This document shows, one piece after another, positions 718-34,067 of a stretch of 64,000 nt of DNA. Numbering within the stretch: the stretch's first letter is position 1; the number at the start of each line of letters is the position of its first letter. The translations under genes were made by a program, and so were the position numbers. The notes under the pieces are model-generated. The model was not told where the DNA came from, searched no databases, and saw only the letters and a program-made list of their open reading frames with translations. Source of the DNA: Dillenia suffruticosa (Eukaryota > Streptophyta > Magnoliopsida > Dilleniales > Dilleniaceae); contig JAVTVX010000012.1 in NCBI GenBank assembly GCA_033439265.1, positions 18,300,501-18,364,500 of the forward strand. The letters run 5' to 3'.

Positions 718-3700
718 AGGTAAATTACACTTTATCTCCCTATGATTTAGCCGAAAATCATATACTTCCCCTATAATAAAAAAATATCCATTTATATCCC
801 TATAGTTTTAAAAAGTATGGTAAGTGGATGAAACTAAACAATCGTTAAGGAGATTATGACGCACGCATGAGTTTTTGTGCTAGTCGGTTAATATGCAAAT
901 TTAAATCCCAAAATTGTCATCAATTCGAATTTGGTGTCTAAATATAAGGACAAATCAAATTATCTTGAAATTCAGTGAAGATATCCCATTTTCTTAAAAT
1001 CTTCTAAATATTTCTTGAAAATCTAAATATATTTTGTTCAAATTTTTTAACATTTCTTCAAAATTTGTGAAGGTAGTATCTTATGCTTAAATTTCTTTTT
1101 GTTCATATAAAATATTATGCCAAATTTGGGGATTTACATTTTTTTCCAAATTTTCTTGTTTTCGTAACTCGAAATTTGGATTTTAGTTGTATCCATTATC
1201 TGATTTGAATATATTTGAATTACATGTATTTTCTTCAATATCCATTATCAAATACTATACCCAAATTTGAGTTGTTTGTGCTTTTGTGGTGTAATGTGTG
1301 TGTGTATTTTTTTTTTTTTTGGAAATTCAGGATGTCTTTTTCAAGTATCGGTGATGGAGGACCAAGAGATCTCAAATTCCAATATCGAAGATGTGATTAT
1401 GGCAAAGGGATATTCTAAAGAGAGTGGAATCTAAGAATCTTTCAAACGGGTTGTAATATTTTGTTTGTAAAAAAATGAACGTGAGTTTTTTATATGGTGT
1501 CAGCCGATAACTTTCTAAAGGGAAAGGGTTCAGAAGTATAATAATAAAGCAATTGTAATCAATAGGTAAACATGGAATATAGGTAGCTCATTCGAGAGTC
1601 CAAATATTAATAGTGCAATAGCTGAAGATAAAATTTATTCGGTATGGATATAAACTGTGGTAGAAAATTTGAGATTTATTAAGAGACTTATGATTGTCTG
1701 CATTATAGTGGTTATCTTGTCACTAGTAATTTGTTATGCCGAGTGAATATCAGTTGTAATTGAAATGTTGATTGTTATGCTTGTATTCTTTTTTTCAATT
1801 TTAAATGCAAATTTAACGGGGATCATTTTGGTTTTCGTGTCTTTCATTGATGCTGGAAAATACAAATTTTTTATGATATCTTGAAACATTAGGATTTATG
1901 TTATCTTTGTATTTCACACTATATGTGCGGGTTGTTTGGCAATTTTTTTGTATTCGACATAACTAATTTGGGTTCTTTTATTTTTTTCGACATTAATATT
2001 CTATGAAATGCCTTGATTGACATAAGTGAGTTTTGTATTGACACAAAACTATATAGTTGTCATATAATTAATTTGTGTTGACATAGATCATATGTATGTC
2101 AACATTAAGATTGTGTCAATATAAGTAAGAGTTGTGTCGATGCGGTGCTTATCCAAATACCAATAACGTATTTGATCCAAGTTTTGGGTTGTTTCAATAT
2201 AAGGAATGTGTCAACACGAATCTTGGGTTGTGTCAATATAAGGGTTGTATTAACACAAATTTTGAATTGTGTCAATACAAGTTTTGGGTTATGTCAATAT
2301 AAATAAAGGATTGTGTCAACAAAAGCAAAGGTTGTGTCAACATAAGTAAGGGTTATGTTAACACAAAATTTGGGTGTATTGACATAAGTAGATGTCATTT
2401 TGCCTTAATAATAGAAATATATGAATCATTCTGCCATAGAATATAACAGTGGGGGTATTGTCCAACATCACATTCTATTACAAATCAACAATCTAAATAT
2501 CAATTCCATATTAAATACATATTGTTCCAAATACGAGTTGTTCATATGAAATACAAGTGTCAAATACCAGTAACATCCTAATTACAAATACAAATTGTTT
2601 TTATTTTAATTCCAAAAAACCTTCATACACTATACACCAACTCAATATACCAATCTAGGCCATTAGATTTATGAATTCAGGGGTTCTATTTGATGTTTTT
2701 CTAATTCTTGTACTCCTCCGCAATCTTTTAGATGATCAAGAATCATTAATAATTGCTAGTGATACAAGAGTTTTGGATGCATATTGAACTCTATCCCTAT
2801 CATTAAAATTACTCCCAAGTTACTAAGAAACAATGGACCCAATTGGTGTCTAAACCAATAAAATAATTGATATCAATAATATGATAAAATATTCAAATTA
2901 ATTAAATGAATTACAATTAAAACAGAATCTGCTAACATTGTTGAATTTGTTGTTAGGGTGAATATAATTCTTGCACGTTCTGGAATTATGATTTGCCTAG
3001 AAACATCTCTTGTAGTGAAATATTAGATCCTTTTCTGGTGGATAGGGTTGAGACAACAGTCTTATCTATGATATGATAAATCCGCTGTTCAAATAAAATA
3101 AAATTATCATATGGTTCTCCATATGAGAATAACCTCGCACCATTGTACAACATGTATAGTTCAAATATTATTTTACATTCAAACCATTAATTCATTGAAA
3201 CTCTAAATGTGCTTTACTGAAAAAGAAAAATTTAGGAAAAAAATCCTTCCACTGAAATCTACATTTTTCACAAATTTTTCTACATTCAATATCCGTCCAC
3301 TAGATCCCACTAAAATCAACTTTCAAGTTTTCCACCAGTACCTGATTTATGTTTTATAAGAAAAACAAAAAATATATAGAAATAACATTCAAAATTAGAA
3401 AAATATCAAAACCATATATAGATCTGCTTACTCGACAGTGCCTTCGTAATCCAAAAAATATTCAATCATTTCGATCATTTCCCGCTTACTGAAATTATTC
3501 CAAAAATTCTATTTTTCGTCACTAAAAATTCGAATTTAAGAAAATTTGAAACTGTAGATATACACAAAAAAACCACAAATTCATACCCAATAGTGCCTTC
3601 AATTTCACTTTCCCACTTCAAAAAATGTTCGATCTTATCCCCTCACTCAAATAGAAATTCCCCTCATTCAAAATCTTCAATCACCGTTCGTCCTCTCTCT

Positions 3701-7090: not shown

Positions 7091-7465
7091 CTTTTAGTTA
7101 AATAATAAAAACTATTTAATAGAAATTTTTAGAAATTTTATCAAATATTTAAATTTTATTTTAAAATTTATTTATAAATCAAAAGCTAAAAGTAAGCAAA
7201 CAAACAAACCATGTTCTTAGACCTTATCTAGTAAGTAGGTATGGTTTAGGACATTGGTCATTTATAAATAAGATACCATAAACTCCCAACACATTGTGCT
7301 ATTTATCGTAGTTTTCTTGCTATCTTGCTAGTCGTTGGGATTCTGTTAAACTTATTAATTTATCTCTATTTTATTTTATTTCATGTTTAATAATTTTTAA
7401 GGAATATAAAATTTCGTAATTTCTATAAAAGAAATTTAAATATATTATTACCTTTGTCAAATGAG
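7091..7465. other. AT-rich spacer, nothing recognised
   Basis: Sequence between the LTR-like block and the next MULE-type element. No coding frame, repeat end or RNA gene was seen. Confidence 0.5.
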
Positions 7466-7475
7466 TTTAAAAAAT

Positions 7476-9401
7476 GAGATAATTATATGTCAAGTTCCGA
7501 AACTTTATCCCAAATTCACAAATTGGTCCATAAACTTCAAAACATAACGATTAAGTACCTAAACTTCAAAACTTGTAACACCGTTAGTCCTTCCGTTAAA
7601 TCTGGTTGTTAAATGTTGACTTGGATCAACATGACAGATGATGTCGAGAGATACTTTCTTATTTGACTTCCAGCGTGACGGTATTTGCTAACGTGTTAGT
7701 TGACACGTCAGCGCCAGTCACGCACAAAGTTTTCACGTCAGACAAATGCTTACATGTCATGCCAAGTTATCACCCCAAACACCTTATATTGCCATGTCAC
7801 GAATGTGCTGACGTGGCACTACCACGTTTGTTAAGGTTTATTTCAATGATTGAAACAATTTTTTTGTTTTATTTTTATCTTTATAAATTAAATATTAATA
7901 TTATTTAAACACAAAAATGCACTGTGTTCTCTCTCTTCTGTGCGTGAAACCCACATGCCCTTCTACCATTTCTGTCAACAGAAAGTGCCATGGCTCTCTC
8001 TCTCTCTCTATCAATCTTTCTATTTTTTTTAATTTCAATTAAATCATAAAAATCACTACATCAAATATCAAAGAACCCTTATTCATCCCAATTTTGAACC
8101 CTCTACAGAATTCGCCATTATCGAATGTCATTTTAGGATTTCTTCTCTTTGTTTGGGTACAGAGAGAATGCTACTTCCAAACCCAGCAGCCCCCTTGGCT
8201 CTTCAAGAGTGGTATGCACACACCCAAACGTGAAATTTTGAAGAATTAAGAAACTCAAAGTTGGGGTTTTGGAGAGAAAGTGGGTTTTGTGGAAAGAGAG
8301 AAGGTTGGGGTGAGGATGATAGTGACGAATAGAAGAAGGCAGTGAGTGAAAGAAGCCATTAAAGTTTGAAAATTTGAAAAAATTGTGGAATCTAAAAAAA
8401 AAAATCACGTTACCGGCATTTGAAGCTTAGATCTTCATAGCCATAACAAATTCTGACGGAAAAGGTGAGGAAGAGTTCATGCCCCAGCTCCATAAGCTTT
8501 GTTATTATTTGATAAAGGGAAGAAATTCTGGAAATTTCAGAAATTGATTATTGATTTTGTAAACAGTTGATGGTGAACAAAAATTTCCCCAAAGGAAGAA
8601 ACAAAAAGCCCATCCAGAAATCTCTCCCTCTATTTCACAATATATATATATATATATAAAAATGAAGATGCATAAGTCTTCAAGTAAAGCCGTCTCCACC
8701 TCCACCTTTAAAATCACTGTCTCCACTGCAGCCTTAAACCTTCGATTGCAGAAATCTCCTTCGACTTCTCTGAGTTTACCATCACATTGCCTTTGCAGTT
8801 TTAATCGATTAGATTCCATCGCGGTTTTCGACTTCTCTGCATCCTTTCATCCACAATCACCATCGGTTTCTAGGGTTCCATCAAAACCATTGGCAAATCC
8901 CACAAACCTCACTTGGTTCGGGCTTGGTTCTTCTGTTCTAGGGTTGGGTCATCACTGGTTTTTGCTTTTATTCTTCCATTGTTGATCCATGAAAAAGTGA
9001 GATAGATAGAAACTGGGAAAGAGGGGGGAGAGAGGGAGAGAGAGAAATTTATTTTGTTTTTTGTTTTTTCTTCCTTTTAGCCTCTGTTTTGTACAAGCTT
9101 TTTTATTTTTTTTTTGTTTTTTCTCTTTATTTATTTATTTCTCTTTTAATTTTGGGGGTGATGTGGCATTGTCACGTCAGTAATTCTTTCCAGGATGAAA
9201 GTCAACTCAGAATTTGCTTATCACACCATTTACCACGTAGATCCATGTCAATATTTAACGACCAACTAGGTACCGTTACTAATTGAAAAACCAATTTGTT
9301 ACTGTTTCTAAAGTTTAGGTTCTCAACCGTTGCATTTGAAAGTTCAGAAATCAATTTGTGAATTAGTAGTAAAGTTTATAAACTTGACATGTAATTATTT
9401 C
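7476..9401. mobile_element. Non-autonomous MULE-type element, 1.9 kb, 10-bp target duplication
   Basis: The left end reads GAGATAATTATATGTCAAG. The right end, reversed, reads GAAATAATTACATGTCAAG. The inverted repeat continues, with decay, for some 150-350 bp and includes the shared string AATTCACAAATTG. Flanks 7466-7475 and 9402-9411 are both TTTAAAAAAT, a perfect 10-bp duplication. The ends resemble those of the neighbouring 9470-11357 element in layout (CGTTAA...ATTGACRTGGA and many ACGTCA strings), so the two probably belong to related families. The interior of about 1.2 kb may be captured host sequence, but I recognise no protein in it. Confidence 0.75.
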
Positions 9402-9974
9402 TTTAAAAAATTAATATAAGTAAGTTATGAAAAAGTGTATTTGTGTCGTATAAAAGTGGGACACTAAAAGAGTAAATTAATTGCCTAGTCCTTAAAGTTT
9501 GGCCCAATTTCACAAACTAGTCCTTATAATTAGGACTGCTAACTTACGATTCTCAAAGTTCAAAAAACGTAATGAGTTGATCCTTCTGTCAATAATGACG
9601 CCAGGGTGACCGTTAACTATTAACGTGGAATGACGTAACAGCCTGTATGTCGATTGGATACTGACTTGTCATTGTAATATCAGCATCTGAACATATCTCA
9701 TATTGTCACGTCAACAAATTACTAACGTGACACGTCACCTTAAATTTTAAAAAAAAAATAAAATCTTCCCAAAAAAAAATATAAAACCTTAAATTATTAT
9801 AAAAAATATAAAACTTTAATTTTCTTAGAAAAATATAAAATTTCTCTCTCATGATCTCTCTCTCTCACTAGGAAAAAAAAGTAACCTTCTTCTCTCTCTC
9901 CTCCCCTTTGCCTCTCTCTCCTCTCCAAGAAACCTCATTTTTCTCCATCATTTCATCAAACAAGCTCTGAGCAC

Positions 9975-10652
9975 ATGAAAGCAAAAGAAAGGGAAGATCG
10001 GAGACACCGAAGATGGAGATCGGAGAGAGAGAGAGAGAGAGAGAGGAGGAGCAGCGGTGCTGCTGGAGGTGCAAGTGGGGCCATGCTCCAGTTCTACACA
10101 GATGATGCCCCAGGACTCAAGTTCTCTATGGGACTTACATTAGCACTTACATTAATGCCAACGAGTGCATTTATGCCATACCCACGATCTCTATGGGACT
10201 TTCCAGAGGACCCATTTCGAATCCTCGAACAGTCTCCTCTCACAATTCCCAAATCCGCCGAACCCTTAACTCTCGCGCGCGCAGATTGGAGAGAGACAGG
10301 CAATGCCCACATAATCACTATAGATGTTCCGGGGATCAAGAAGCAGGACATCAAGATCGAGATGGAGGAAAACAGAGTGCTGAGAATTAGCGGAGAGAGG
10401 AAAGCGGAAGAGGATGTGGAGGTGGAGAAATGGCATAGGGCGGAGAGAGTTTCTGGTAAGTTCTGGAGACAATTTAGGATGCCGGGGAATGCGGATCCAG
10501 ATGGGATCAGAGCAAGGTTGGAAGATGGGGTGTTGACTGTGATTGTGCCTAAGCTTGCCGAGGAGAAAAGGAGACAACCTAAGGTTATTGATGTTGTTGC
10601 CGATTCCAATGAAGCTGGTCAGGATATTAACGCTACTAAAACTGATGCATAA
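9975..10652 (+). CDS. Chimeric ORF: Sec61-beta N-terminal segment joined to ER-type small heat shock protein
   Basis: Open frame of 225 codons. Residues 1-24 come from GA-rich leader sequence. Residues about 25-50 ([12 protein letters not shown] then [12 protein letters not shown]) match the conserved cytosolic tail of plant Sec61-beta, an ER translocon subunit; its membrane anchor is absent. After a short hydrophobic stretch ([15 protein letters not shown]) the frame becomes an ER small heat shock protein: [23 protein letters not shown], then a full alpha-crystallin domain ([42 protein letters not shown]) and a C-terminal KVIDV I-x-I-type motif. There is no KDEL-like tail. Family members are ATP-independent holdase chaperones. 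The LWD region is a few residues shorter than usual. Possible starts are 9975, 10083 and 10128; the last would leave a signal-peptide-like N-terminus and 174 residues. Whether it is expressed is unknown. Confidence 0.85.
10123..10201 (+). repeat. Short templated duplications at the chimera junction
   Basis: A 14-bp string, TCTCTATGGGACTT, occurs at 10123-10136 and again at 10188-10201. The second copy is the native SLWDF coding site of the heat shock part. Inside, ACTTACATTA occurs twice (10133-10142 and 10145-10154). Together they build the hydrophobic bridge between the two captured parts. Such filler duplications are expected from template switching during gene acquisition. Confidence 0.75.
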
Positions 10653-10788
10653 AATTAATTAATTCTCTGTCTTTCTCTCTACAAGAATGTTATGAGTGTG
10701 TATATAAATATATAAATATAAATATATAAATATATATCTATTAGCTGCAAATGGGGGAAGTTGTTTCCATGGAAGTAGGATGATGCGT

Positions 10789-10794
10789 AATAAA
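10789..10794 (+). terminator. Candidate poly(A) signal of the chimeric gene
   Basis: AATAAA lies 137 bases after the stop codon of the chimeric frame, within an AT-rich 3' region that precedes the right TIR. It suggests that a host 3' UTR was captured together with the heat shock coding part. Confidence 0.5.
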
Positions 10795-10878
10795 ACTTTA
10801 GCATGCTTTTCCCCTTTTTTGTTTCATTTCATTTTTTCTTAAGCATTTTGAAGATGTTTAATAAGTGCACTTGGGAAG

Positions 10879-10913
<35 letters not shown>

Positions 10914-11944
10914 AAGAGATGTCCCGGGTCTGGAGTGAGAGAGAGAAAATGGGGCTCTGGGTTTGTAGAGAGCGAGTGAGATGAGGAGAGAGAAATTTTA
11001 TATTTTTTAAAAAAATTAAAGTTTTATATTTTTATAATAATTTAAGATTTTATATTTTTTATTAAAAGATTTTATATTTTTTTAAAAAAATTTAAAGTGA
11101 CATGTCATGTCATGTCAGTAATTTACTGATGTAACAATATAAGATGTTTTCAGATACTGACATGGTAATGACAAGTCAGTATCTGTATAATACGCAGGTT
11201 GTCACATCATTCCACGTCAATAATTAACGACCACCCTAACGCTGACATTGACAGATGGACCATTGGAACTTTGAGGACCGCAAAGTAACACTCTTAACTG
11301 TAAGGATTAAGTTGTAAAATTGAGTCAAATTTTAAGGACCGGACAAATAATGTACTCAAAAGTAAAATTTTGTTTCTCTCTCTTCTTTAATTAATTTATA
11401 ATGAGAAAGGGTTGGAGCTTTGAGCTACGTGAAGTTGTGGAGTTTTGTACGGATATAATCATAAAAAATAAAAAAAAATTTTAAACATCTATTGCGGAAA
11501 ATAATTTCACATTTGACACATGTCGAGTCTTCAAAACTCAACATGCCCTATTCACGCATATCGAGTCTTGAGTCTTGAAGACTCGATATGCCTCTTAATT
11601 GCCCGCATGTCGAGTCTTCAGACTCGACATGGCTCCTCTCCTGGCCCATTTTCTATACTATTTTATGCCAACCCTAAAATACAATCTGTAAATACAATCT
11701 CTGAATTTTACCATTCCAACTTCGAAACAGAAAAAAATATATAGTGTCATTTTATGTCAACCCTAAAATACAATCTCCAAATACAATCTCCGAATAATAC
11801 CATCCCAACTTTGAAACATGAATAAAATTTAGTAACAATACATATCTTAACAGCATCTAAGCAGATCGATGAAAATAAACAAAGTACAATAAAATATAAA
11901 AAACAGAAAAGATTTTATTAATTAAAAAATTGTTCATAATACAA

Positions 11945-13190
11945 ATGATCAACGACGTTTTCTTCTTCTAATATAATATCTAACACTTATATCAGGTCTA
12001 CTCTCAGTATAATCAGACTGAGATATTAATTCCAGATCATCTATCTGTGAGATTTGGAAGGCACCTGCATCATACTGGTAGGAGTCAGAGAAAACCGGTG
12101 GAGAGACATGAAACAAGGGTGGTGCATCATCTCGCTTTACCTATGTCAGTCCCTTGCCCATAAAACTATTGGGACGAACTCCCTGGAGTGAAAACCTGAG
12201 GGAAGTCATCAAACACATGCGTGTAGAAATCTGAAGACTCACCGAACGTAGTAGAAGGTCCTCCGACATCCTCAGGTTGCTGAGACGACGGTAGTGACAC
12301 ATGATCAGTTGAGGGTGGTGGTCTCGTACCTCGTCCTCATCCTCTTCGTCGCCTACGTGGTCGGTCTGTATCACCACCATCATCGCCATCTCTAGCAGGT
12401 CTACGTATGAAAAGATAAGTCATGTCATTTGCCAATCCCGAGATGGCTAAATCAAAAGGCCCCCGAGTGTCGTCACCTGTAGTCGATCGTAACTCGTGCA
12501 ATATATCCTACTGCAATAAAATGTGTTAAAGTTAGTTTAAAAACAAATCAAAAATATTGATTGACTAAGAGAAATGCAGATATAAAGTAGTTACCACGTA
12601 GGTCAAAGAAGCTCCCCAACGACCGATGAACATGCGGGAGATGTGCGAAACCAACTACTGTAGGCAAGATCAAGGGCAGGTCTGCACGAAGTATCTAGTA
12701 ACACTAGATAGTTGCATGCTCCACCGTCCAATCGACCTCCAGCGTACCTCGACTGCTCGAATTGTAAAGTCTATCCTCTGTATCACAATGTATCAGAATG
12801 TGCTAATATGCTTCAAACTGTCGTAACACTCTGTTTGGAAAGTATAATTCCAAGATACTAAAACAGATCAATGGGACCTGCGCGTGCCAAATATCCCTCC
12901 CCTCATGACAGTAGCCAGGGAGGGATGCCGTAACTCATCTGGGTAGGGTACCCATACGACATGCTCCACGACCTGCCTATCTACTCCCTCCCTATACACT
13001 GAGACTACGTGTGTAGGGAAAGCAATGACGTCAAAATCTTCCCTCCACCGCAAAGTAAGCGAGCCATCCCCATCTCCGTGCAACGACCGTCAAATGGAGC
13101 TATATAAGGGAACCGCTCCCACCCCCAAATCTGTAGCAAAATTAAAGCGCCACCTATCTCACGTGAGTCTGGGTGCGTGACAATACAAAG
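11945..13190 (-). pseudogene. MULE-2 plant mobile domain (PMD) remnant
   Basis: The minus-strand reading includes YRQLCIVTHPDSREIGGAL, LLQIWGWERFPYIAP, FPTHVVSVYREGVDRQVVEH and, further on, GRA/RRR-rich linker and FGESSDF-like pieces that match the PMD gene of MULE-1 part by part. It ends in an arginine/lysine-rich tail (YYIRRRKRR). PMD proteins (Pfam plant mobile domain, as in MAIN and MAIL1 of Arabidopsis) occur both as host genes and inside transposons. Several frame breaks and loss of the N-terminal portion make this a pseudogene. The first part is fused in frame to the transposase remnant (ORF 13005-14024). Confidence 0.8.
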
Positions 13191-14596
13191 CTGCCTATAC
13201 ATATATCCCTTGTGGCCATACTGTGTTTGTCGTTGCCCTGTCTCTATACTTATCAATGGCCGACAACTTCTAAATGCGGTGATACTAGGACCAAATACCA
13301 AAAACACAGTTTCAAAAACCCTTTCACCATTTTCTCGTAGCGAACCCAACCTCCATAAAACTTGTGATCCTGGATTCCTTTGGACTATTGCATCCAAAAC
13401 CCGTGACAACTCTTTGTATGATTCCTCCCAGTCCCCGTATACCATTTTTATGGCCCTTCTTTTCGCAGCCCAAATGCTTCTTTGGGAAACTGCATATATA
13501 GTTTTTTCTGCCATAACAGTTCGCAAGAAAGAGACTTTCACACTTGGGACTTCCCGTACGTAGTTAAGAAAATGTCGAACCATCAAATTTGAATCCAATT
13601 GCCTATGATTTTGCGTCAACCCAACATTGACACATGTGTGCAGTCCCTCTACAACAGTTATCACAAAGGCACTAAGAAGTCTTGTTTTACATGCACGCAA
13701 CCTCCACTTACAACTATTATCCCTTTGAGTACATATCGCTGTCCACATTGTAGGGGATGATCTCCCAACACGGAATTGATAGTGATGCTCCACATGATGC
13801 ATTTTCACAAAGTGTATAAGCTCTTCTTTCGACTCGAATCTCGTTCCTTTCTTCAATTTATCTCTAGAACTCCCACTATCACTTCTCAATCTACAATCTT
13901 CCTCGAAAGTCACAAAATCATCTCCTTTTGGTGCAGTTGTAATGAAAGGAATTGAATCATCAACTCTACCACTGACATTTCTCCGACCACGACCAATGGG
14001 TGTAGTCGCTCCGGAGGATCCCAATATTATTTAGTTTGCTAAACTACCACCACTACCATGACAAACTTCTCCAACATCTTCTTCATCATCATCGTCCTTT
14101 TCTTCCACCTCTTCTTCCGCCTCTTCTTTCGCCCCTTCTAACTCCATTTCTTCCTCGTCCACATCATTATCCACACCTGCGCTTGCAAGATCCACTCGAC
14201 ATTCGAGCTCTGGATATTCATCCATATAATCGTAACCTTGTTGCACGTATATACTAGCATTGTATGTCTTTACATATAATTCATGCGTCGTACCCACTCC
14301 CATACTCACCGCAAACTCCATCAAGTTCAAAACATCGTCATCATCACTAATCGGTACCAATTCGTATCGTATATTCCCCCTTGCATGTGTGATACGGAAA
14401 AACGATGATAAATCTCTACATGTTGTTTCCTTAAATTTATCTGAAAATCCTTGCACATCACGAAAACCATTTCATTAAATGATGCATTTCTCCTGATCCG
14501 AATCAATTTCGAAGGCCCACGGTAATAACCGACTCCATTCTCAACTGTCACAATTTCACCATTTGTGTAACATAACAATCTCACAATCTCCACCAT
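13170..14596 (-). pseudogene. MULE-2 transposase remnant (N-terminal and DNA-binding parts)
   Basis: The reading on the minus strand starts MVEIVRLLCYTNGEIV, the PB1-like N-terminal module of plant MuDR-type transposases. An acidic linker rich in Asp and Glu follows (about 14200-14040), then the MuDR DNA-binding domain (FESKEELIHFVKMHHVEHHY, WRLRACKT, EGLHTCVNVG). The frame reaches SCRPLISI, just before the first catalytic aspartate, and then jumps to a short piece of the C-terminal part (TGQRQTQYGHKG) and into PMD sequence. The DDE core, SWIM finger and zinc knuckle are absent. A reading-frame offset occurs near 14390, at the place where MULE-1 and MULE-3 also change frame. It cannot encode an active transposase. 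Confidence 0.85.
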
Positions 14597-19690: not shown

Positions 19691-20905
19691 TGTGAAAATA
19701 ATTTCTGAAAGTGCAGGTTGAGGTTGACTATGGTCTCCATGGATTGACCCACACTTCACTGGATTCAGTGGTTGTTCGCTCAAAACCAGTCGCTCTCTTG
19801 GTCAGATTTAACCTCCGAGCTTTTTGATTGCTTTAGAGGGGGACTATCTGCAAACCCCTTTGAAGGTCTGGCATCCACGAAGCAGACGGGGACTGTTGAT
19901 GCCCACATTGACGAGTTTGTGGCCAGAGCAACACTTTTCAAAGGTTTGAGTTCTTCGATTCATCTAGGTCTTTTTCTCAATGACCCCAAAGATGAAATTT
20001 GTGTGCGAATCCGTTTGCACGAACCTCTTTCTCTCTTCAAGACCATGAAATTGGCTCGGGAAATAGAGAGAGAATTTTTTTTTCAGGCAGGGATGCTTCC
20101 GGGTAAAGAAGATGAAATCCATACCTTACTCGGGTTGAGAAAATGGAGCGGGTCAAACCTGACCCATGGGGATCCAACACTCATTTTAACCCAAAACCAT
20201 TTATCCAAACCCAATTTTCTTTTAACCCGCCTCTTGTTAAAGACAACCCCATCACTCAGCGTTCTTCTTCCTCTCCAAATTCTCCACAACCTAGTTTGAA
20301 CACAACCAACAGAGGCTCCCGACAAATGTCCCACCAAGACTCATGGACATGTGATTCAAGGGACTATGCTTCAAATATAAATAGCCTTACCACCCCCTTC
20401 ACAACTGTCCCAACAAAAGCCTTCATGCGATAATATTGGGCGATGATGAAACTCCTATGACTGACAAAGCCGCAACAGAGGAGGCAGTAGCTGATGATTT
20501 GGAACACCACCTGGACATTTCTCTTGCATCTCTTGAGCTTCCCATGTTTTTAGTTGGAGGTATTTCTCATCCCAAGACTATGAAATTTATGGGAATCATT
20601 GTTGGGAAAAATTAATAATTATGGTCGATAGTGGGGTTAGTCACAATTTCGTAACTGAAGACACTGCCCGTCGATTGGGACTTTTGGTTCAAAACATGGT
20701 GATGGAAGACAACTAGTTTTATCGGACATATGTTGTGGTGTGCAGATAAATTTGGGTTGTATTGTGATTACAGTCGATTGTTTTCTATTTCTTTTGGGTG
20801 AAGATGATGTAATTTTGGGAGTTTCGTGGCTAGAAACATTAGAAGAGGTCAGGGTTAATTAGCAATTGATGACTATGCGATTTCAGTGGCATGGTTCACC
20901 ATGTT
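19690..20905 (+). mobile_element. Ty3/gypsy fossil fragment (gag and protease region)
   Basis: The plus-strand reading has a retrotransposon gag domain (FAQNQSLSWSDLTSELFDCF and following, about 19730-20060). A proline-rich linker and an aspartic-protease region follow near 20560-20850 (VDSG, then ILGVSWLETL). It is broken, lacks LTRs and reverse transcriptase here, and is interrupted on its right side by the copia fragment on the opposite strand. Confidence 0.75.
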
Positions 20906-22735
20906 TTTTTCTCTTAGAACCTTGAGACTTTCAAAGTTGAGGTGTCCGTACCTCATGTGCCATATCCATGAAGGATCTTGAATACAAACATGTAAACTTT
21001 TGCTTTTGTAATCTTCAAGTTGAGCAAAAACATACGGTTTTTTTGTCATGAGAACTTTGGCAACGAGTCTATCTTTCCGGTCTCGGAGCCAAAAAAAGCG
21101 ACCCTCCATAGGCACTTTATGTACGTTCTCTAAAAGTTGTCCAATACTCAAGACGTTGCTCTTCATCTTGGGTATATAGTAAACATTGTGTAATATTTTG
21201 TGGCCTCTATTTTTCAAGGCCAAAATCACTGAGCCCTTTCCCTCGATTTCAACTTTTGTGTCATTACCAAATCGGACATAGTCCATCATCTTTATGTTTA
21301 AGTCTATGAATTTGCTTCTATCTCCTGTCATATGGTTGCTTGCAGCATTATCGAGGTACCATATGTCATTTTCTCCTAAAGGATCTTCCCTTAGAGAGAG
21401 CAAGAGGGTTTCACCTTCGGTCTCCTTATGCTCGGCAAGATTTGTCTCTGCATCACCTCTCTTGGTTTGACACTCCCAAGAATAGTGCCCGTACTCGCCA
21501 CATGAGTAGCATTCAACTTGGCTTTTGTCACGCTTCGGCTCATTGTTTCTCCGGTTGTTTCCTCTGCCTCTACCGCGGTCTCTTTGGACATTTTTGTTTC
21601 TACCATATTGAGCATAATTCTGCTCTCCTCTACCTTGACCACGTTCTTGGATTCTTCTACCTCTTTCTAAACTATTTCCTTTAGGATTAAAGGAAAGTTT
21701 TGCTTGTAAGACTTGTTATGTAGGCTCTGGTTGACTCCGCTTCATTCTCTCTTCATGGGCTAATAAGGACCCATTCAACTCATCGATAGTCATTGCCTCT
21801 AAGTCCTTAGACTCTTCAATTGCAACGACTACATGATTGAATTTTGCGGTGAGAGCGTAGAATCTTTTCTACCACTAGTACATCATCAACCGCTTCTCCG
21901 AACCTTTCCTTTGATTCACTACCGTTAACACACGAGTAAAGTAGTCCATTATGGACTCAGTCTCTTTCATCAAGAGTGACTCAAACTCAGTCCGTAGAGT
22001 TTGGAGTCTCACCTTTTTCACCTTATTAACTCCTACTATGGAGTTTTTAAGGATATCCCATGCATCCTTGGCCTTGGTCGCATTGGCAATTTTCTCGAAC
22101 ATGTAGTCATCCAATCTTTGATGGATGATAGAGAGGGCACTTTGATCTCTCTTCTTTGCTTTTTGCAAAAGATCTAGTTGGGCTATTGTAAGTGCACTTT
22201 CATCAATGGCTTCCTCATAACCCTTCTCCACAATATCCCATAAGCCATGAGACCCAAGAATAGCCTTCATACGTAGTGATCATCTATCATAATTTGTCTT
22301 GGTAGGTTGTGGAAATTGGAAGGTGATACTTGAACTTTTGGTGGCCATTTTAACAAGGCTATGATACCAATTTGTTGGGAGCAGAAGGTGGTTAGCATGG
22401 TGAGAAGAAAACAATTAAAGTAATATAACTAAACTTTCACTCTAAAAAGATAGGAGAGAGGAATTGTATCTCTTCATTCATTGATGGATTATCTCTATTT
22501 TCTCCTACTTTACAAAGGAGGACTCCCCTATTTATAGGAAAGGGTTGGGAGTCCAAGAGTCTCTTACATTACTTCTCCATTAAGCACTCATAATACATAA
22601 TAATAACTAATAAATCCTAATAACTCCCAATAACTAACATTAACTAACACTAACTACCAAGAACTATTTGGACGGTTACATGACTTTTCATGTCCTAATG
22701 AATACATATTTATCATTGTAGATATTGCATGGGTG
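20905..22735 (-). mobile_element. Ty1/copia fossil fragment with 5' LTR, inserted beside the gypsy piece
   Basis: The minus-strand reading includes a gag/UBN2-type domain ([20 protein letters not shown], about 22270-21875), a zinc-knuckle region, the protease region (WYLDNAASNHMTG, about 21350) and the pre-integrase domain (WHMRYGHLNFESLKVL, about 20930). Upstream on that strand a tRNA-Met-like primer site (TGGTATCATAGCC) abuts an LTR-like region beginning at about 22372 on the plus map; its outer end near 22735 is uncertain. Only the 5' half of the element is present, it is broken, and no 3' LTR was seen. Confidence 0.75.
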
Positions 22736-27109: not shown

Positions 27110-29668
27110 ATGACGGACATGGTGAGATTGTTATTGTACACAAAAGGTGAAATTGTGAAGGGTGAAAATGGGATGGGCTATGACCGTGAACCTTCGAAGT
27201 TGATTCAGGTGAAAAAAGATGTATCTTTTAATGAGTTGGTAACCATAGTCTGAAAGGGACTTGGAATCAATTCGACAATACAACACGTAGAGATATTTCA
27301 TCGTTGCCCTATGTCACACATGCAAGGGGGAATGTAAGGTACGTATTGGTACCGATAAATGATAATGATGACGTTCTAAACTTGATGGAGTTTGCGGTGG
27401 CTATGGGAATGGGTACAAGTCATGAGTTGTATATAAAGGCATACAATGGTCGGACGTTTGTCTCTGTACAACAAGATTGCGATTATGAAGAAGAATATCC
27501 ACATATCGAATCTCGAGTGGATGTTGCAATAGTAGACATGGATAATGATGTGGATGAAGAAGAAATGGCCGAAGAGGAGGCGGAAGAAGATGCGGAAGAA
27601 GAGGATGACGATGAAGAAGAAGATGGTAGAGAAGCTGGTCGTACTAGTGGTCGTAGTTGTGGAAACCATACGATGTTTGGGTCATCTTCACAGCCTTTAC
27701 CCATTCATGGTGGTAGGAGATATCTCTATAACGGAGTTGATGAGTCAATTCCTTTCATGCGAACTGCACCGAGAGGAGATGGTTATGTCACTTTTGAGGA
27801 AGATTGTCGATTGACAAACGATAGTGGGAGTTTTAATAATGAAGTGAAGAAAGGTATGAAATTTGAGTTGAAATATGAACTTATTCATTTTGTAAAAATG
27901 CTTCATGTGGAGAATCACTATCAATTTCGTGTTGGGAGATCAACCCCTACACTTTGGACAGCGGTATGTACTCAAAGGGATGAAGGTTGTGGGTGGAGGT
28001 TGCGTGCACGTAAAATAAGACTACTTGATGCATTTGTGATAACTATTGTTGAGGGACCGCATACATGTGTCAATGCTGGGTTGACGCAGGATCATAGGCA
28101 GTTGGATTCAAATATGATGGCCCGACAGTTTGTTAACTATGTAAGGGAAGACCCAAGTATCAAAGTCTCTTTCCTAGACGAAGAGAACCACGTACGTAGT
28201 TTTCCGAAGACGAGTTTGGGCCGCAAAAAGAAAGGTGATTGAGATGGTATACGGGAATTGGGATGAATCATACAATGAGCTGCCTAGAGTTTTGGATACA
28301 ATTATGCAAAAGAATCCAGGATCACAAGTGCCATGGAAGTTCGGTCCGCCCCGAGCGAATGGTGAAATGGTGTTTGAAGCTGTATTTTGGGCTTTTGGTC
28401 CTAGTATCATGGCATTTAGAAGTTGTCGGCCATTAATAAGTATAGATGGGACTCACTTGTATGGGAAATACAAGCACAAGTTGTTGATTGCATGTAGTAT
28501 GGATGGTGTGAATCACATAGTGCCGTTGGCATTCGGATTGGTGGATGTAGAGTCACTAGCGTCGTGGTCATGGTTTTTAATGTGCGTGCGAGACTATGTT
28601 GTGTTAGATAGGGAGGGACCAATATGCTTGATTTCAGATCAACATGAAGGGATAAGAGCTATTGTTGCTCGTCCAGAGTTTGGATGGTCGCCTCCGCATG
28701 TCGTTTGGCCTTTTTGCATGAGGCATGTCGCTAGTAACTTTAACACGCATCATAAAAGTCAAGCTTGTAAGAGAGTCACCGTAATTGCTGCATTACAACC
28801 ACAACGCAAGAAATTTGATCTATATATGGCAAGAATGAAGGAGATAAAAAATGATGCCCCCAATTATTTCGTGAACATTGGACCAGAACAATGGACTCTC
28901 TCTCACGATGGTGGGTTTCGTTATGGCTACATGACGACCAATATCAGTGAAAGTTATAATGCCGTGCTAAAAGGTGCAAGGAATCTCCCCGTTTCTGCTT
29001 TGGTACTAAAGACATTTTATAATACGGTTAACTATTTTGAAAGTAGAATCGCTGAGGCGAAAGCGGGGATTGCAAGAGAAGAGCGGTATACGAAGTATGC
29101 AAATGCCATGTTAGGAAGGTGGATGAACACCGCTAACCTTCATACGGTTGTCTCTTTTAGTAGGGAGAATGAGATTTTCAAGATAAAAACAGGTCATAGA
29201 CAAGCACAGTATGGCCACAAGGTAGGAAATAAACAGATCGTCGACGTCAATAATGAACATTGCACTTGTGGGAAATGGCAAACGTATAGAATACCTTGCT
29301 CGCATGCAATCGCTGCACTATCACGGACCATGATGGATGTTCATATGATTGTCGGAAAATGGTATACGTGGCAACATCAACTTAAAGTGTACGAGTTATA
29401 TTTTTCACCGGTAGGAGATAGATCTGGATGGCCAATCGGATCGTACCCAACTATCATTCCGGACGTATCACTAAGACGTGAGAGTGGGAGACCTAAGTCA
29501 TCTCGATATCATAATGAGATGAATATCCGAGAATCATCTTCGCGGGTATCGTGCGGCAGTTGTAGTGTCGAGAGTTATAATCGGAGAAGATGCACAACAC
29601 AAATGAAATGTGGTATTTGTGGGAGACAAGGTCACAACCGAAGAAATTGCCCAACCATATCGCGTTGA
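27110..29668 (+). pseudogene. MULE-1 MuDR-type transposase (nearly intact)
   Basis: Cuts and joins the element at its TIRs in the nucleus. Start chosen at 27110 (MTDMVRLLLYTKGEIV). Order: PB1-like N-terminal module, Asp/Glu-rich linker (27540-27640), MuDR DNA-binding domain (FELKYELIHFVKMLHVENHY, WRLRARK, GPHTCVNAG; about 27850-28090), MULE catalytic domain with D in SIDGTHL (28441), D in ISDQHEG (28635) and E in ISESYN (about 28945), SWIM zinc finger (CTCGKWQTYRIPCSHA, 29260-29310), and a C-terminal CCHC knuckle (CGICGRQGHNRRNC). Breaks: an in-frame TGA near 27252, a frame offset near 27300 shared with MULE-2 and MULE-3, and a frameshift at about 28180-28210. The long 477-codon frame from 28235 holds all catalytic residues. 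Confidence 0.93.
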
Positions 29669-29909: not shown

Positions 29910-31883
29910 ATGGATCCAGGCCCTTCTGATCCGAGTGTGCTCCGGTTACAGCAGCGACACCGTTCTTCTCACCTTTGGGAGGGAGTCGGCACGACGGTTA
30001 TGCTGACTTGCCGTCGACGCGAGGCCGTGTTACGCCGTTGGGACCACCGTCACATCGACGAGAGAGTCCTTCCTCTTTTGAAGCACTCCAGATTTTTGGG
30101 CATTGCTCGACTTCGCTTCATTCAATTTGATTGGCATTTTATCACTGCTCTGGTCGAGCGATAGAGGCCAGAGACGCATACTTTTCACCTTTCCCATGGT
30201 GAGATCACTATTACCCTTCAGGATATTGAGGTTTTGTTAGGGTTACCTGTGGATGACCATCCCCTCGTTTGTAGGACGACGGGAGTGGTATGGGATGATG
30301 TATGTATGTGAGAGACTTTTAGGTGTTAGGTCACCACGGTCTGCCATTAGAGGATACAGTTTGAGCATGCCGTGGATGTCTGAGGTTTTTGATGATTTGC
30401 CCGATGGTGTTGATAATATAGCAATTTTACGGTGGACACGGGCGTATATTTTACTTTTGATAGAGGATGTCCTGTTTTCTGATAAAACAGAAACTTTTGT
30501 ACATTTACAGTTTTTATTATGTTTAGAAGATTTAGAGTTGTCAGGTAGATTTAGTTGGGGATCTGCTTGTTTGGCATATCTATACAGACAGCTTTGTATA
30601 GCCGCGTATGCACATGCACGTGAGATTGAGGGGGCCCTAGTTTTGTTACAAATTTGGGGTGGGAGCGATTTCCGTATATGGCTCCTATTCGACGAGGTTT
30701 ACACGTACATGGGGATGGACCACTTGGCTTGCGGTGGCACGCTCAGTTTGATGTCACTATATTCCCTACACACGTAGTTTCTGTTTATAGGGAGGCACTC
30801 GACAGGCAGACGGTCGATCAGGTCATTTGGGTCCCGTACTCGGATGATGTATTGTCATCCCTCCCCGCCTGCTGTCGCAGGGGGAGGGATATTTGGCACG
30901 CACGGGTCCCTTTGATTTGTTTTAGTATCGTGGAGTGGCACTTTCCAGATAGGGTGTTACGACAGTTTGGAGGTTTGCAGTACGTTCCGGGTGCCTGTGA
31001 CACCGAGGACAGACTCCACGACACGAGCACGCGGGGTACTATAGAGGTTGATTGGTCGGCAGTGCATGCAGTGTACATAGATCTTTGGAATCACCAACAC
31101 GACCATGTAGTTCCGCTAGATACCTCCTTTGGACCTGCGCTCGATCCTCACTATTCGATCTGGTTTCGTTCCATCTCCCGCAGATTTGTCGGTCATTGGG
31201 GAGCTTCTTTGACTTACGTCGTAAGTTTCCCTCTACTACTTTCTTTTCATTCTTAATTAAATAATTTAATTTGTTGTTTTAATTAATTTTCACATTATTG
31301 TTTGTAGTGGGACACTTTGCACGAGATACGAGACAATCCTGGTGCCGACGTTCGTTGCCTTGCTGAGTCGGCTATCTCGGTTCTAGTAGATGATATGACA
31401 TGTCTTTTCAGTGATCGCCCCGAGACAGATGGGGCAAACGTTGGTGATGCAGGCCGAGCACGTGGACGACGCCAAGGGAGAGGACAGCATACAAGACCTC
31501 GACGCTCGTCCGAACATGCGTCAACGCCACCGTCACAGCAGGTTGAGTATGTTGCAGGACCTTCTACTATGTTCGGTGAGTCTTCAGATTTCTACACGCC
31601 AGTGTTTGATGACATCTCTCAGGTTTTCACTCCGGGGGCTCCTCAGAGGGAAGTTCGTCCCCATAGCTTTATGGATGACGGACTGACACAGGGTGTGACA
31701 GATGATGCACCACTGGTGTACCATGTGTCCCCGCCTGTTTTCTCTGATCCCCACCAGTAGGATGTAGGCCCCTCCCAAATCACACAGATAGATGATATGG
31801 GATTAGTATCTCGTGATAACTCTATAGGCAGTACAGTAGCTATAGGTCTTAGACTGTACACTAGAAGAAGACGACGACATTGA
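29910..31883 (+). pseudogene. MULE-1 plant mobile domain (PMD) protein gene
   Basis: Starts MDPGPSDPSVLRLQQRHRSS, 242 bases after the transposase stop and on the same strand. The reading contains the PMD hallmarks: FLGIARLRFIQFDWHFITAL, GEITITLQDIEVLLGLPVDD, PRSAIRGYSLSMPW, LLLIEDVLFSDKT, LYRQLCIAAYAHAREIEGAL, WERFPYMAP, VDWSAVHAVYIDLWN. An 87-base intron at 31221-31307 (GTAAGT...TTTGTAG) precedes a disordered, arginine-rich tail (GRARGRRQGRGQ). The C-terminus is basic (YTRRRRH, stop at 31881-31883), as in MULE-2. Breaks: in-frame TAG codons near 30162 and 31758, and frameshifts near 30240-30255 and 30655. The function is inferred: perhaps an accessory nuclear factor for the transposase. Confidence 0.88.
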
Positions 31884-32304: not shown

Positions 32305-32495
32305 ATGTCGTGAGTTGAACTCACGACATGGGTATCTCCTCACCTTATGTCGTGACTTCAAGTCACGACATTGATGAACAGTGCATGTCGTGACTTGAAG
32401 TCACGACATAGGTATGTTAGATTTATAATTAGTTTTCAAACGGTGTTGTTTTAAAAATTATTTATTTTAAAAATGTTATTTCCGTACAAAGCTCC
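32305..32495 (+). repeat. MULE-1 right TIR with three subterminal palindromes
   Basis: Palindromes lie at about 32305-32329 (stem TGAG/CTCA), 32347-32371 and 32384-32409 (stem TGAC/GTCA). They mirror the left TIR apart from the innermost unit, whose stem differs at two matched positions and so stays self-complementary. Confidence 0.9.
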
Positions 32496-34067
32496 AGAGG
32501 AGAGGGCCTCCTGGAGCACAAGAGAAGAAGCAATTCCTCTGTTGTTTGGAGGGGCATCTGTGCCGGTAGAGATTGCCTTAGAAGGGGTATGAGTTGGAGA
32601 ATTAGATATGACAATTCTGTAAGTTTTTGGTATGATCGTTGGATTGGCAATGAAGCCCTGGTGAGTGAAGCGATTATTCTGCAGGAGAATTGTGGTGCTG
32701 CAACTAAGGTAAACCAGCTTTGGGATGAAGAAGGCAGGTGGAAGGTTGATGATCTAGCTACTATCCTCCCTAGTAACAAGGTGGAAGAAATTAGAGCTCT
32801 TCCTATCCCCAAAGACAGAACCAAACACGATTCCATAGTGTGGAAGGAGGGAGCTGATGGTGAGTTCTCTGTGGCGTTCGCTTACTGGTTACAGAAGAAG
32901 AATGTGTCTTCTCAGCAGCAGAGTGGAGAAGACTGGAGTTGGATTTGGAGAATGAAAGGGCCAAAGAGAGTGAAAATTTTCATGTGGCTGGCTGCTAAGG
33001 GCAAAGTGCTGACCAAATCAGAGCTCAGGAGAAGAAAAGTGCTAGATGAGGATGTTTGTGATCTTTGCAAGAAGGAAGAGGAAACTTTTGAACATGCAGT
33101 GAGGGACTGCTCTCACGCTTCAAGTATCTAAGGGCAGCTGCTACAGAATATCGATTCTGAGAGTAGCTTCTGGAGTGATGCTCGGAAGGTGTGGCTTAAG
33201 AAGGGAACCTCAAGAAAGTATAATCTCAGTCTAGAGAAGGAAGAAATAGCTTTTGCGATAATAGTGTGGGTCATATGGAAATCTAGGTGCTGCGGTTCAT
33301 TCCAAAACATAATTGAGCCACCGTAGCAAGTCGCCATAAGGGCCCGTAGTATGACCTCTGCCATCGCGACCAGATTACCCAGCAGAAAGGATGGAGAGGA
33401 GGCGATCCCGGTAGTCTGGTCTAAGCCTGCTGAAGGGAGGATCAAATTGAATGTTGATGTTGGAGCTAGTCTAGAGGGTGTTCGCGCTAGTGCAGGTGGC
33501 CTGTTCAGAGATAGGAGAGGTGAATGGCTCCATGGATTTTGGGCCAATGTGGGTGCTGCAGGGGTTGACTTGGCAGAGTTGTGGGCACTGAGAGAGGGTC
33601 TTAAGATAGCTAAAGTCCTAATGTACTGGGATTTGGAGGTAGAATGCGACTCATTTAAGGTCACCTCTGCAGCGAATGGGGAAGTGGGCGAGAATCATCC
33701 TTGGTGGAATGTAATTTAGGACTGCAAAGATCTTATGAAGGATTTGTTCATATCTAACATTGCTCATATCTATAGAGAAGCCAATAGGAGTGCTGACAAA
33801 CTAGCCGAGCTTGGTAAGACTATCCAACCTGAACTCGTGGAATCTGGTATTCCTCTGCCTGAAGTGCTCCCCCTCCTGGCGTTCGACGCTTTGGGAGTTC
33901 AGTGGGCCAGAAGAAGAAAGAAGACCAGTCCTCCCCTCGCGAGGTTTCCTAATGAAGCTTGAGCTTCCTGTTCTTCGCGGTGCTGCTGAGGTTTCGATTT
34001 TCTTGTTTTTCTTTTGTTGTTTGTCTTTGTTCTTCGCTTTTCATTACCCAAAAAAAAAAAAAAAAAC

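Follow-up and report, generated by a model that had tools for sequence, protein, structure and literature searches.

A Mutator-like element in the genome of Dillenia suffruticosa encloses an uninterrupted reading frame of 225 codons in which a fragment of a Sec61-beta gene is followed by most of a small heat shock protein (sHSP) gene. The element is most likely a well-resolved chimeric Pack-MULE, a non-autonomous element that built the frame in at least two captures and now carries it as a neutral passenger, or proto-gene, a reading to which we assign a probability of about 0.82. It lies in a stretch of 64,000 nucleotides (hereafter the window; G000:C12:18300501-18364500, contig JAVTVX010000012.1) of the 596-Mb assembly GCA_033439265.1. 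A first-pass annotation of this DNA had described inverted repeats of Mutator type around a fused Sec61-beta and sHSP frame, and had suggested that a new ER-associated chaperone may have arisen in this way. The observation as a whole was confirmed, with donor genes at 91-95% (Sec61-beta) and 92-93% (sHSP) identity. The origin of the frame can now be traced beyond the earlier proposal, and the suggested function finds no support in the tests that sequence permits.

Layout of the element and its repeat family

The frame runs on the forward strand without interruption from an ATG at 9975 to a stop at 10652 (9975-10652), as originally reported. It is enclosed by a left terminal inverted repeat at 9470-9880 (forward strand), which begins GAGTAAATTA, and a right one at 10966-11357 (reverse strand). 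The two are approximately 390-410 bp long and align with 307 identities, 84 mismatches (78.5%) and 6 gap runs. The decamers immediately outside, GACACTAAAA at 9460-9469 and AAAAGTAAAA at 11358-11367, form a candidate target-site duplication matching at 7/10 positions at the exact ends, or at 7/9 with a 1-bp offset. Internally, and all on the forward strand, the element contains a leader (9844-10049) composed of the inner repeat end and a GA-rich stretch, the Sec61-beta fragment (10050-10127), a 14-bp splice copy (10123-10136) and the sHSP fragment (10133-10855), the latter extending from donor codon 12 through the stop at 10652 into donor 3' sequence. A GA-rich interior at 10856-10965 has no match to the sHSP donor. 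The polyadenylation signal noted at first pass is indeed present (AATAAA, 10789-10794), though as part of the captured donor 3' sequence.

The inverted repeats belong to a genome-wide family. A genome search with the left repeat returned at least 42 matches, two of them the window element itself (40 of 149 candidates were scored), and among the matches listed 27 of the 40 non-self ones begin at base 1 or 2 of the repeat. In eight other paired elements that were fetched, identity between the two repeats ranges from 0.60 to 0.885, compared with 0.79 for the window element on the same measure; its 78.5% is thus ordinary here and conveys no age. The use of repeat divergence as a clock is ruled out by the same set, in which elements with duplications of 9-10/10 cover the entire range of 0.60-0.885. 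The decamers at the exact ends of these eight elements match at 4, 10, 7, 5, 9, 9, 9 and 10 of 10 positions, five of the eight thereby showing duplications of 9-10/10, and the element scoring 5/10 carries, as read by eye, an 11-bp word (CGATTTGTTTT) on both flanks. For the window element, the frequency of a decamer match of at least 7 is 0.0067 among decamer pairs drawn at random from the window and 0.022 when window decamers are compared with the right flank; when offsets are allowed, 30 of 400 random pairs equal its match.

Mutator-like elements are marked by 9-11-bp duplications and repeats of 100-500 bp, and a tomato library was built with a minimum repeat identity of 80%, according to the accessible part of PMC3310237. 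The window element has family terminal inverted repeats within the 100-500-bp range and internal host gene fragments with identifiable donors; its repeat identity of 78.5% falls just short of that tomato minimum, and its duplication was judged against a Pack-MULE standard of 9-11 bp with no more than 2 mismatches. No transposase gene with these repeat ends was detected among two candidates examined. The first, a 5.1-kb paired element (L057), contains no long transposase-like frame, and a Pfam scan of 4/6 frames of at least 100 aa found no transposase in it; the second, a Mutator-type transposase at window positions 27235-29668, is not accompanied by these repeats, which are unmatched between 26 and 30 kb. 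The label "Mutator-like" consequently rests on repeat length and duplication length.

The surroundings are rich in other mobile sequences. A second element with related repeats occupies approximately 7452-9424 of the window and ends about 45 bp from the Pack-MULE, its arm ending near 9424 and the partner arm at 7452-7716 showing 65% identity. On the right, approximately 11435-12300 belongs to an abundant repeat family found at 78-88% in at least 39 other places (40 candidates scored). The flanks of the Pack-MULE are themselves repetitive, the left up to about 9401-9434 and the right from about 11430-11440, and no paralogous empty site was seen. The transposase remnants at 27235-29668 comprise two overlapping frames with MULE (51 bits) and SWIM (32 bits) matches and a DNA-binding domain of 20.3 bits, below its cut-off. 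A Mutator transposase DNA-binding domain (28.6 bits) is present on the reverse strand at 13008-14030, together with a weak plant-mobile-domain match (23.3 bits, below its cut-off), and a plant mobile domain located apart from these, on the forward strand at 30241-30774, is clear at 74.7 bits. Retrotransposon traces include a pol fragment (Pol_BBD, gag_pre-integrs) at 20876-21715 on the reverse strand and a zinc-binding reverse-transcriptase domain fragment at 32433-33128 on the forward strand.

Donor genes, sister elements and the splice

Both donor genes sought by the first-pass annotation were found intact in the window's own genome. A genome search with window positions 10000-10800 yielded 44 matches including the window itself, many of them short and located in AT- or GA-rich stretches of the query; the window alone spans both parts, and the remaining 43 span one part each. 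The relevant loci are four close sHSP sequences (two on C8 and two on C21, 82-93%) and four Sec61-beta sequences (one on C20, two on C19 and one on C30). At the DNA level, the Sec61-beta part (10050-10127) is 95% identical to the gene at C19:21614569 and 91% identical to that at C30:926793, both of which are intact and encode 82-aa products scoring 66.9 and 67.6 bits with Pfam (cut-off 27). It begins at approximately codon 26 of these genes, and the homology stops at about 10127, ahead of the C-terminal membrane span, which is missing. At the protein level, Pfam Sec61_beta matches residues 34-51 of the 225-aa product (E 0.012, 16.1 bits) and a 50-aa piece of it (E 0.0013, 19.1 bits), both below the curated cut-off of 27 bits because only about 22 residues are present, and a phmmer search with a 32-aa piece retrieved Sec61-beta chains in the PDB, the best at E 2.1e-4 and 2.5e-4. 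The earlier assignment of 10060-10120 to Sec61-beta, which a failed protein search would have overturned, is therefore upheld.

The claim that a complete sHSP domain follows also holds. Pfam HSP20 matches at E 1.3e-26 and 93.1 bits (cut-off 20.8) over profile positions 1-101 of 102, so that the alpha-crystallin domain is complete, and the donor scores 96.5 bits. The closest gene, an intact one of 183 aa on C8 (L009), is 93% identical over query positions 134-785 and, when the query is enlarged, 91.6% over 737 columns; we take it to belong to the plant ER-type small heat shock proteins. Homology begins at donor codon 12, meaning that the first 11 signal-peptide codons have been lost. The donor has no intron across the captured part, and the captured 3' sequence shows 13 mismatches and 3 gap openings in 195 aligned bases. 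ER-resident sHSPs typically, though not in all members, end in a retention tetrapeptide, KDEL or HDEL; this was found at the C-terminus of neither the window protein (KTDA) nor the donor (KSDA), and the paralogues end in KVEL and KADL.

Two further elements, on C20 (L010; G000:C20:20372399-20373499) and C19 (L011; G000:C19:20942523-20943382), reveal the order of capture. In each of them the same leader and Sec61-beta piece are joined to a fragment with a Mem_trans domain, which we take to derive from a PIN-type auxin carrier. The C20 element matches window positions 9873-10126 at 88% in a single block, and the C19 element matches 9844-10035 at 85.5% at its opposite end. The leader/Sec61-beta junction lies at the same place in all three, and the Sec61-beta stretch of the two relatives, which differs from the plain genes in both (C20 and C19:20943247), extends about 60 bp beyond that of the window. 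The sequence that follows it has relatives at two loci (C13 and C35), with main blocks at 93-95% (C20) and 90-93% (C19) and, in C20 only, an extra block of 150 columns at 78-81%; Pfam Mem_trans scores 212.8 bits for the C13 frame and 185.2 bits for the C20 fragment, where the PIN-like and Sec61-beta sequences are in different frames. Since these relatives carry leader and Sec61-beta with another host gene piece, Sec61-beta was captured first and the sHSP separately later, and capture in a single step is ruled out. The two elements represent a sister product that arose in one and the same lineage of elements.

At the far end of the C19 element the leader appears again in inverted orientation, which identifies it as part of the element ends and not of Sec61-beta. 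The right end of the C20 element is 71.5% identical over 179 bp to a repeat of the neighbouring window element and 61.7% over 303 columns to the repeat at 9470, and that of the C19 element barely aligns to the 9470 repeat beyond the leader, so the element ends have been exchanged or have diverged. The left ends of the two elements were not found, the C20 one being interrupted by a very common repeat. A GA-rich leader word also occurs at positions 3397-3443 of the C30 locus (L013, G000:C30), some 450 bp ahead of the intact Sec61-beta gene's start codon, and may have helped to bring leader and gene together.

The splice itself is readable to the base. It reads CTCAAGTTCTCTATGGGACTTACATTAGC in the window, compared with CTCAAGATCTCTCCC in the Sec61-beta gene at C19:21614569 and CTCAAGATCTCCCCC in the C30 gene and the C20 copy; in the sHSP donor, the interior of the coding part has CACGATCTCTATGGGACTTTCC and the signal peptide ATACTTACATTAGC. 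Positions 10123-10136 (TCTCTATGGGACTT) repeat exactly the 14 bases at 10188-10201, which are sHSP sequence 65 bp downstream. The word shared at the splice is GATCTCT when one of the Sec61-beta genes is compared, but GATCTC for the second gene and for the copies on C20 and C19. One switch at GATCTC(T) and another at ACTT would account for all bases except 10122, and the 14-bp copy is what template switching would be expected to leave; microhomology-guided switching of this kind is described at capture breakpoints of animal Pack-TIRs in the available text of PMC8277862. A direct join followed by a 6-bp deletion is a possible alternative, favoured by the fact that both paralogues encode Met-Gly where the donor encodes Met-Val, but it would reduce the 14-base identity with 10188-10201 to coincidence.

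These observations suggest a nested course of events. An element with a long repeat ending in the GA-rich leader would first have acquired part of a Sec61-beta exon, with the cut at about codon 26. This junction would survive in the C20 and C19 elements, where the longer Sec61-beta stretch is followed by the PIN-like piece. In the C12 lineage, repair or replication with the Sec61-beta piece as template presumably jumped to the sHSP gene at GATCTC or GATCTCT and copied TCTCTATGGGACTT from it. At ACTT it would then have slipped 65 bp back upstream, into the signal-peptide region, and probably continued through the sHSP stop into the 3' sequence. The outcome would be an element present once in the genome, with a frame open by chance and transcribed, if at all, probably from the repeat.

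The poor target-site duplication counts against this explanation, as regards the transposition that may have followed capture. A variant that concerns the route and overlaps with the preferred explanation is that gap filling within a resident Mutator-like element, which did not transpose afterwards, built the chimera where it now lies. The odds on this route appear about even: a single copy in the genome, the shared words at the splice and the imperfect duplication all accord with it, as does the precedent of single-copy animal Pack-TIRs, attributed mostly to gap filling in the sections of PMC8277862 that are accessible, whereas the 7/10 duplication, with a chance of about 0.7-2%, hints at an old insertion.

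Coding capacity, selection and possible function

The pattern of substitution in the captured frame is compatible with neutral passage by the Pack-MULE. The window and donor differ over 171 codons (513 coding bases) by 26 substitutions and zero indels, with a pairwise dN of 0.037, a dS of 0.107 and a ratio of 0.35. This is the comparison of the heat shock part with its donor that was proposed at first pass. The changes on the window branch do not reject neutrality. When polarised by two paralogues, that branch carries 7 synonymous and 7 non-synonymous changes (5 and 6 without a three-base TTG to CCA codon), the donor branch carries 1 and 4, and 7 changes are ambiguous. The neutral probability of at least the observed number of synonymous changes is 0.08-0.24 for the window branch across four ts/tv settings, 0.017-0.062 if all seven ambiguous changes are assigned to it, and 0.03-0.12 over all window-donor differences. 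Against simulated neutral drift without stops, the domain score, from a profile built from four sequences only, has P values of 0.31, 0.16 and 0.033 at 12, 14 and 19 events. Because the chance of encountering no stop after 12-19 events is 0.45-0.65, the open frame alone says little. Indels are absent from the 513 coding bases, as against 3 gap openings in about 200 captured 3' bases. The changes on the window branch therefore appear compatible with neutrality, some groupings giving a mild hint of constraint, and such signs could equally stem from the donor lineage before capture.

Among the alternatives to a mere passenger, transcripts or small RNAs from the captured pieces might reduce how strongly the donor genes, sHSP or Sec61-beta, are expressed. 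The sHSP stretch, which matches its donor at 92-93% across some 650-740 bp, would be suited to this, and PMC3310237 credits Pack-MULEs with a potential to regulate the genes from which they captured sequence; since the sequence gives no particular pointer to an RNA route, we regard such an effect as unlikely.

Less likely again is an active new ER-associated sHSP, anchored through a tail and signal anchor of Sec61-beta type or directed to the ER by a newly formed signal peptide, as first suggested. In its favour are the frame open through both parts, the almost unchanged sHSP domain (93.1 versus 96.5 bits for the donor), a coding part free of indels and those groupings of changes that hint at constraint. 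The evidence on targeting and translation points the other way. The absence of the Sec61-beta span speaks against a signal anchor, the best 19-residue Kyte-Doolittle mean in the window protein being 1.20 compared with 2.67 for that span and 2.22 for the donor signal peptide (hydropathy only). A new signal peptide from a later start is likewise not borne out: Met52 (10128) comes from the 14-bp out-of-frame copy, being built from bases that encode Ser-Leu-Trp-Asp in the sHSP frame, and the donor n-region is missing from the truncated signal peptide. Of the ATGs from 9821 onward, the first opens a 6-codon frame at 9851 and the next, at 9975, has C at -3; neither 9975 nor 10128 has a purine there. 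A well-placed out-of-frame ATG at 10013 (A at -3, G at +4; 30 codons, 10013-10105, forward strand) intervenes. In the C20 and C19 elements its counterpart reads in the Sec61-beta frame, a difference that stems from the mutable length of the GA repeat, on which the frame upstream of Met37 depends. Together with the failure of the window branch to reject neutrality, these features leave the proposed chaperone unsupported. Any product of the frame would most likely be either a soluble sHSP whose N-terminus is charged and of low complexity or a shorter form lacking a usable signal peptide.

As for expression signals, TATA-like words occur at 9780-9834. No heat-shock element with up to one mismatch was found in 9470-10130, an absence that is uninformative because the 800 bp upstream of the donor and of one paralogue contain none either, while two precede another paralogue; one such element lies at about 9338, outside the Pack-MULE.

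If the sHSP part were instead an ordinary segmental duplicate or a retrocopy, caught by chance between two element ends, introns would pose no obstacle, the donor being intronless across the captured part. This reading is highly improbable, given that leader and Sec61-beta occur in the same order in two other elements, that the donor 3' sequence continues past AATAAA and ends without a poly(A) tract, that the start falls inside the signal peptide and that repeats of one family stand at both ends. It is just as improbable, and is offered as speculation, that a Mutator-like lineage bearing a Sec61-beta "adaptor" repeatedly joined host genes and that a translated C12 chaperone meets the ER translocon via this motif.

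Comparison with known capture systems

One Pack-MULE can hold pieces of several genes. The neutral chimeric Pack-MULE proposed here makes the making of such a frame unusually readable, in that one genome holds both donors along with a sister lineage preserving the earlier junction and a 14-bp template-switch splice; were the frame translated, the birth of a fusion protein could be dated. It also gives cause for caution, since an open fused frame with recognisable domains is able to persist by chance at such divergence. A search of the available literature for a Pack-MULE with a heat shock protein and the endoplasmic reticulum found no papers, and in the titles and abstract beginnings of the papers listed by a broader search no fusion of Sec61 and a small heat shock protein by a Mutator-like element is described.

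As regards its parts, the frame shares with Sec61-beta proper the segment preceding the membrane span and differs in having only about 22 residues and no span. It shares with plant ER-type sHSPs the alpha-crystallin domain, with a C-terminus like that of its donor, and differs in a signal peptide lacking the first 11 codons and in an N-terminus made of element leader and Sec61-beta piece.

It is well known that Pack-MULEs can carry pieces of host genes and give rise to chimeric transcripts (PMC13317346). The window element resembles the rice and tomato Pack-MULEs described in PMC13317346 and PMC3310237 in its repeats within the range of 100-500 bp, its enclosed fragments of host genes, the possibility of new frames or chimeric transcripts, and the expectation of expression from repeat promoters. 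Its repeat identity of 78.5% and 7/10 duplication are poorer than the thresholds given in the available sections of PMC3310237, whereas its capture order and splice can be read. With animal Pack-TIRs, for which PMC8277862 describes an origin by gap filling or fork switching, it shares microhomology-guided template switching, and it differs from them in its plant host, its Mutator-like ends and the joining of two host genes in one frame.
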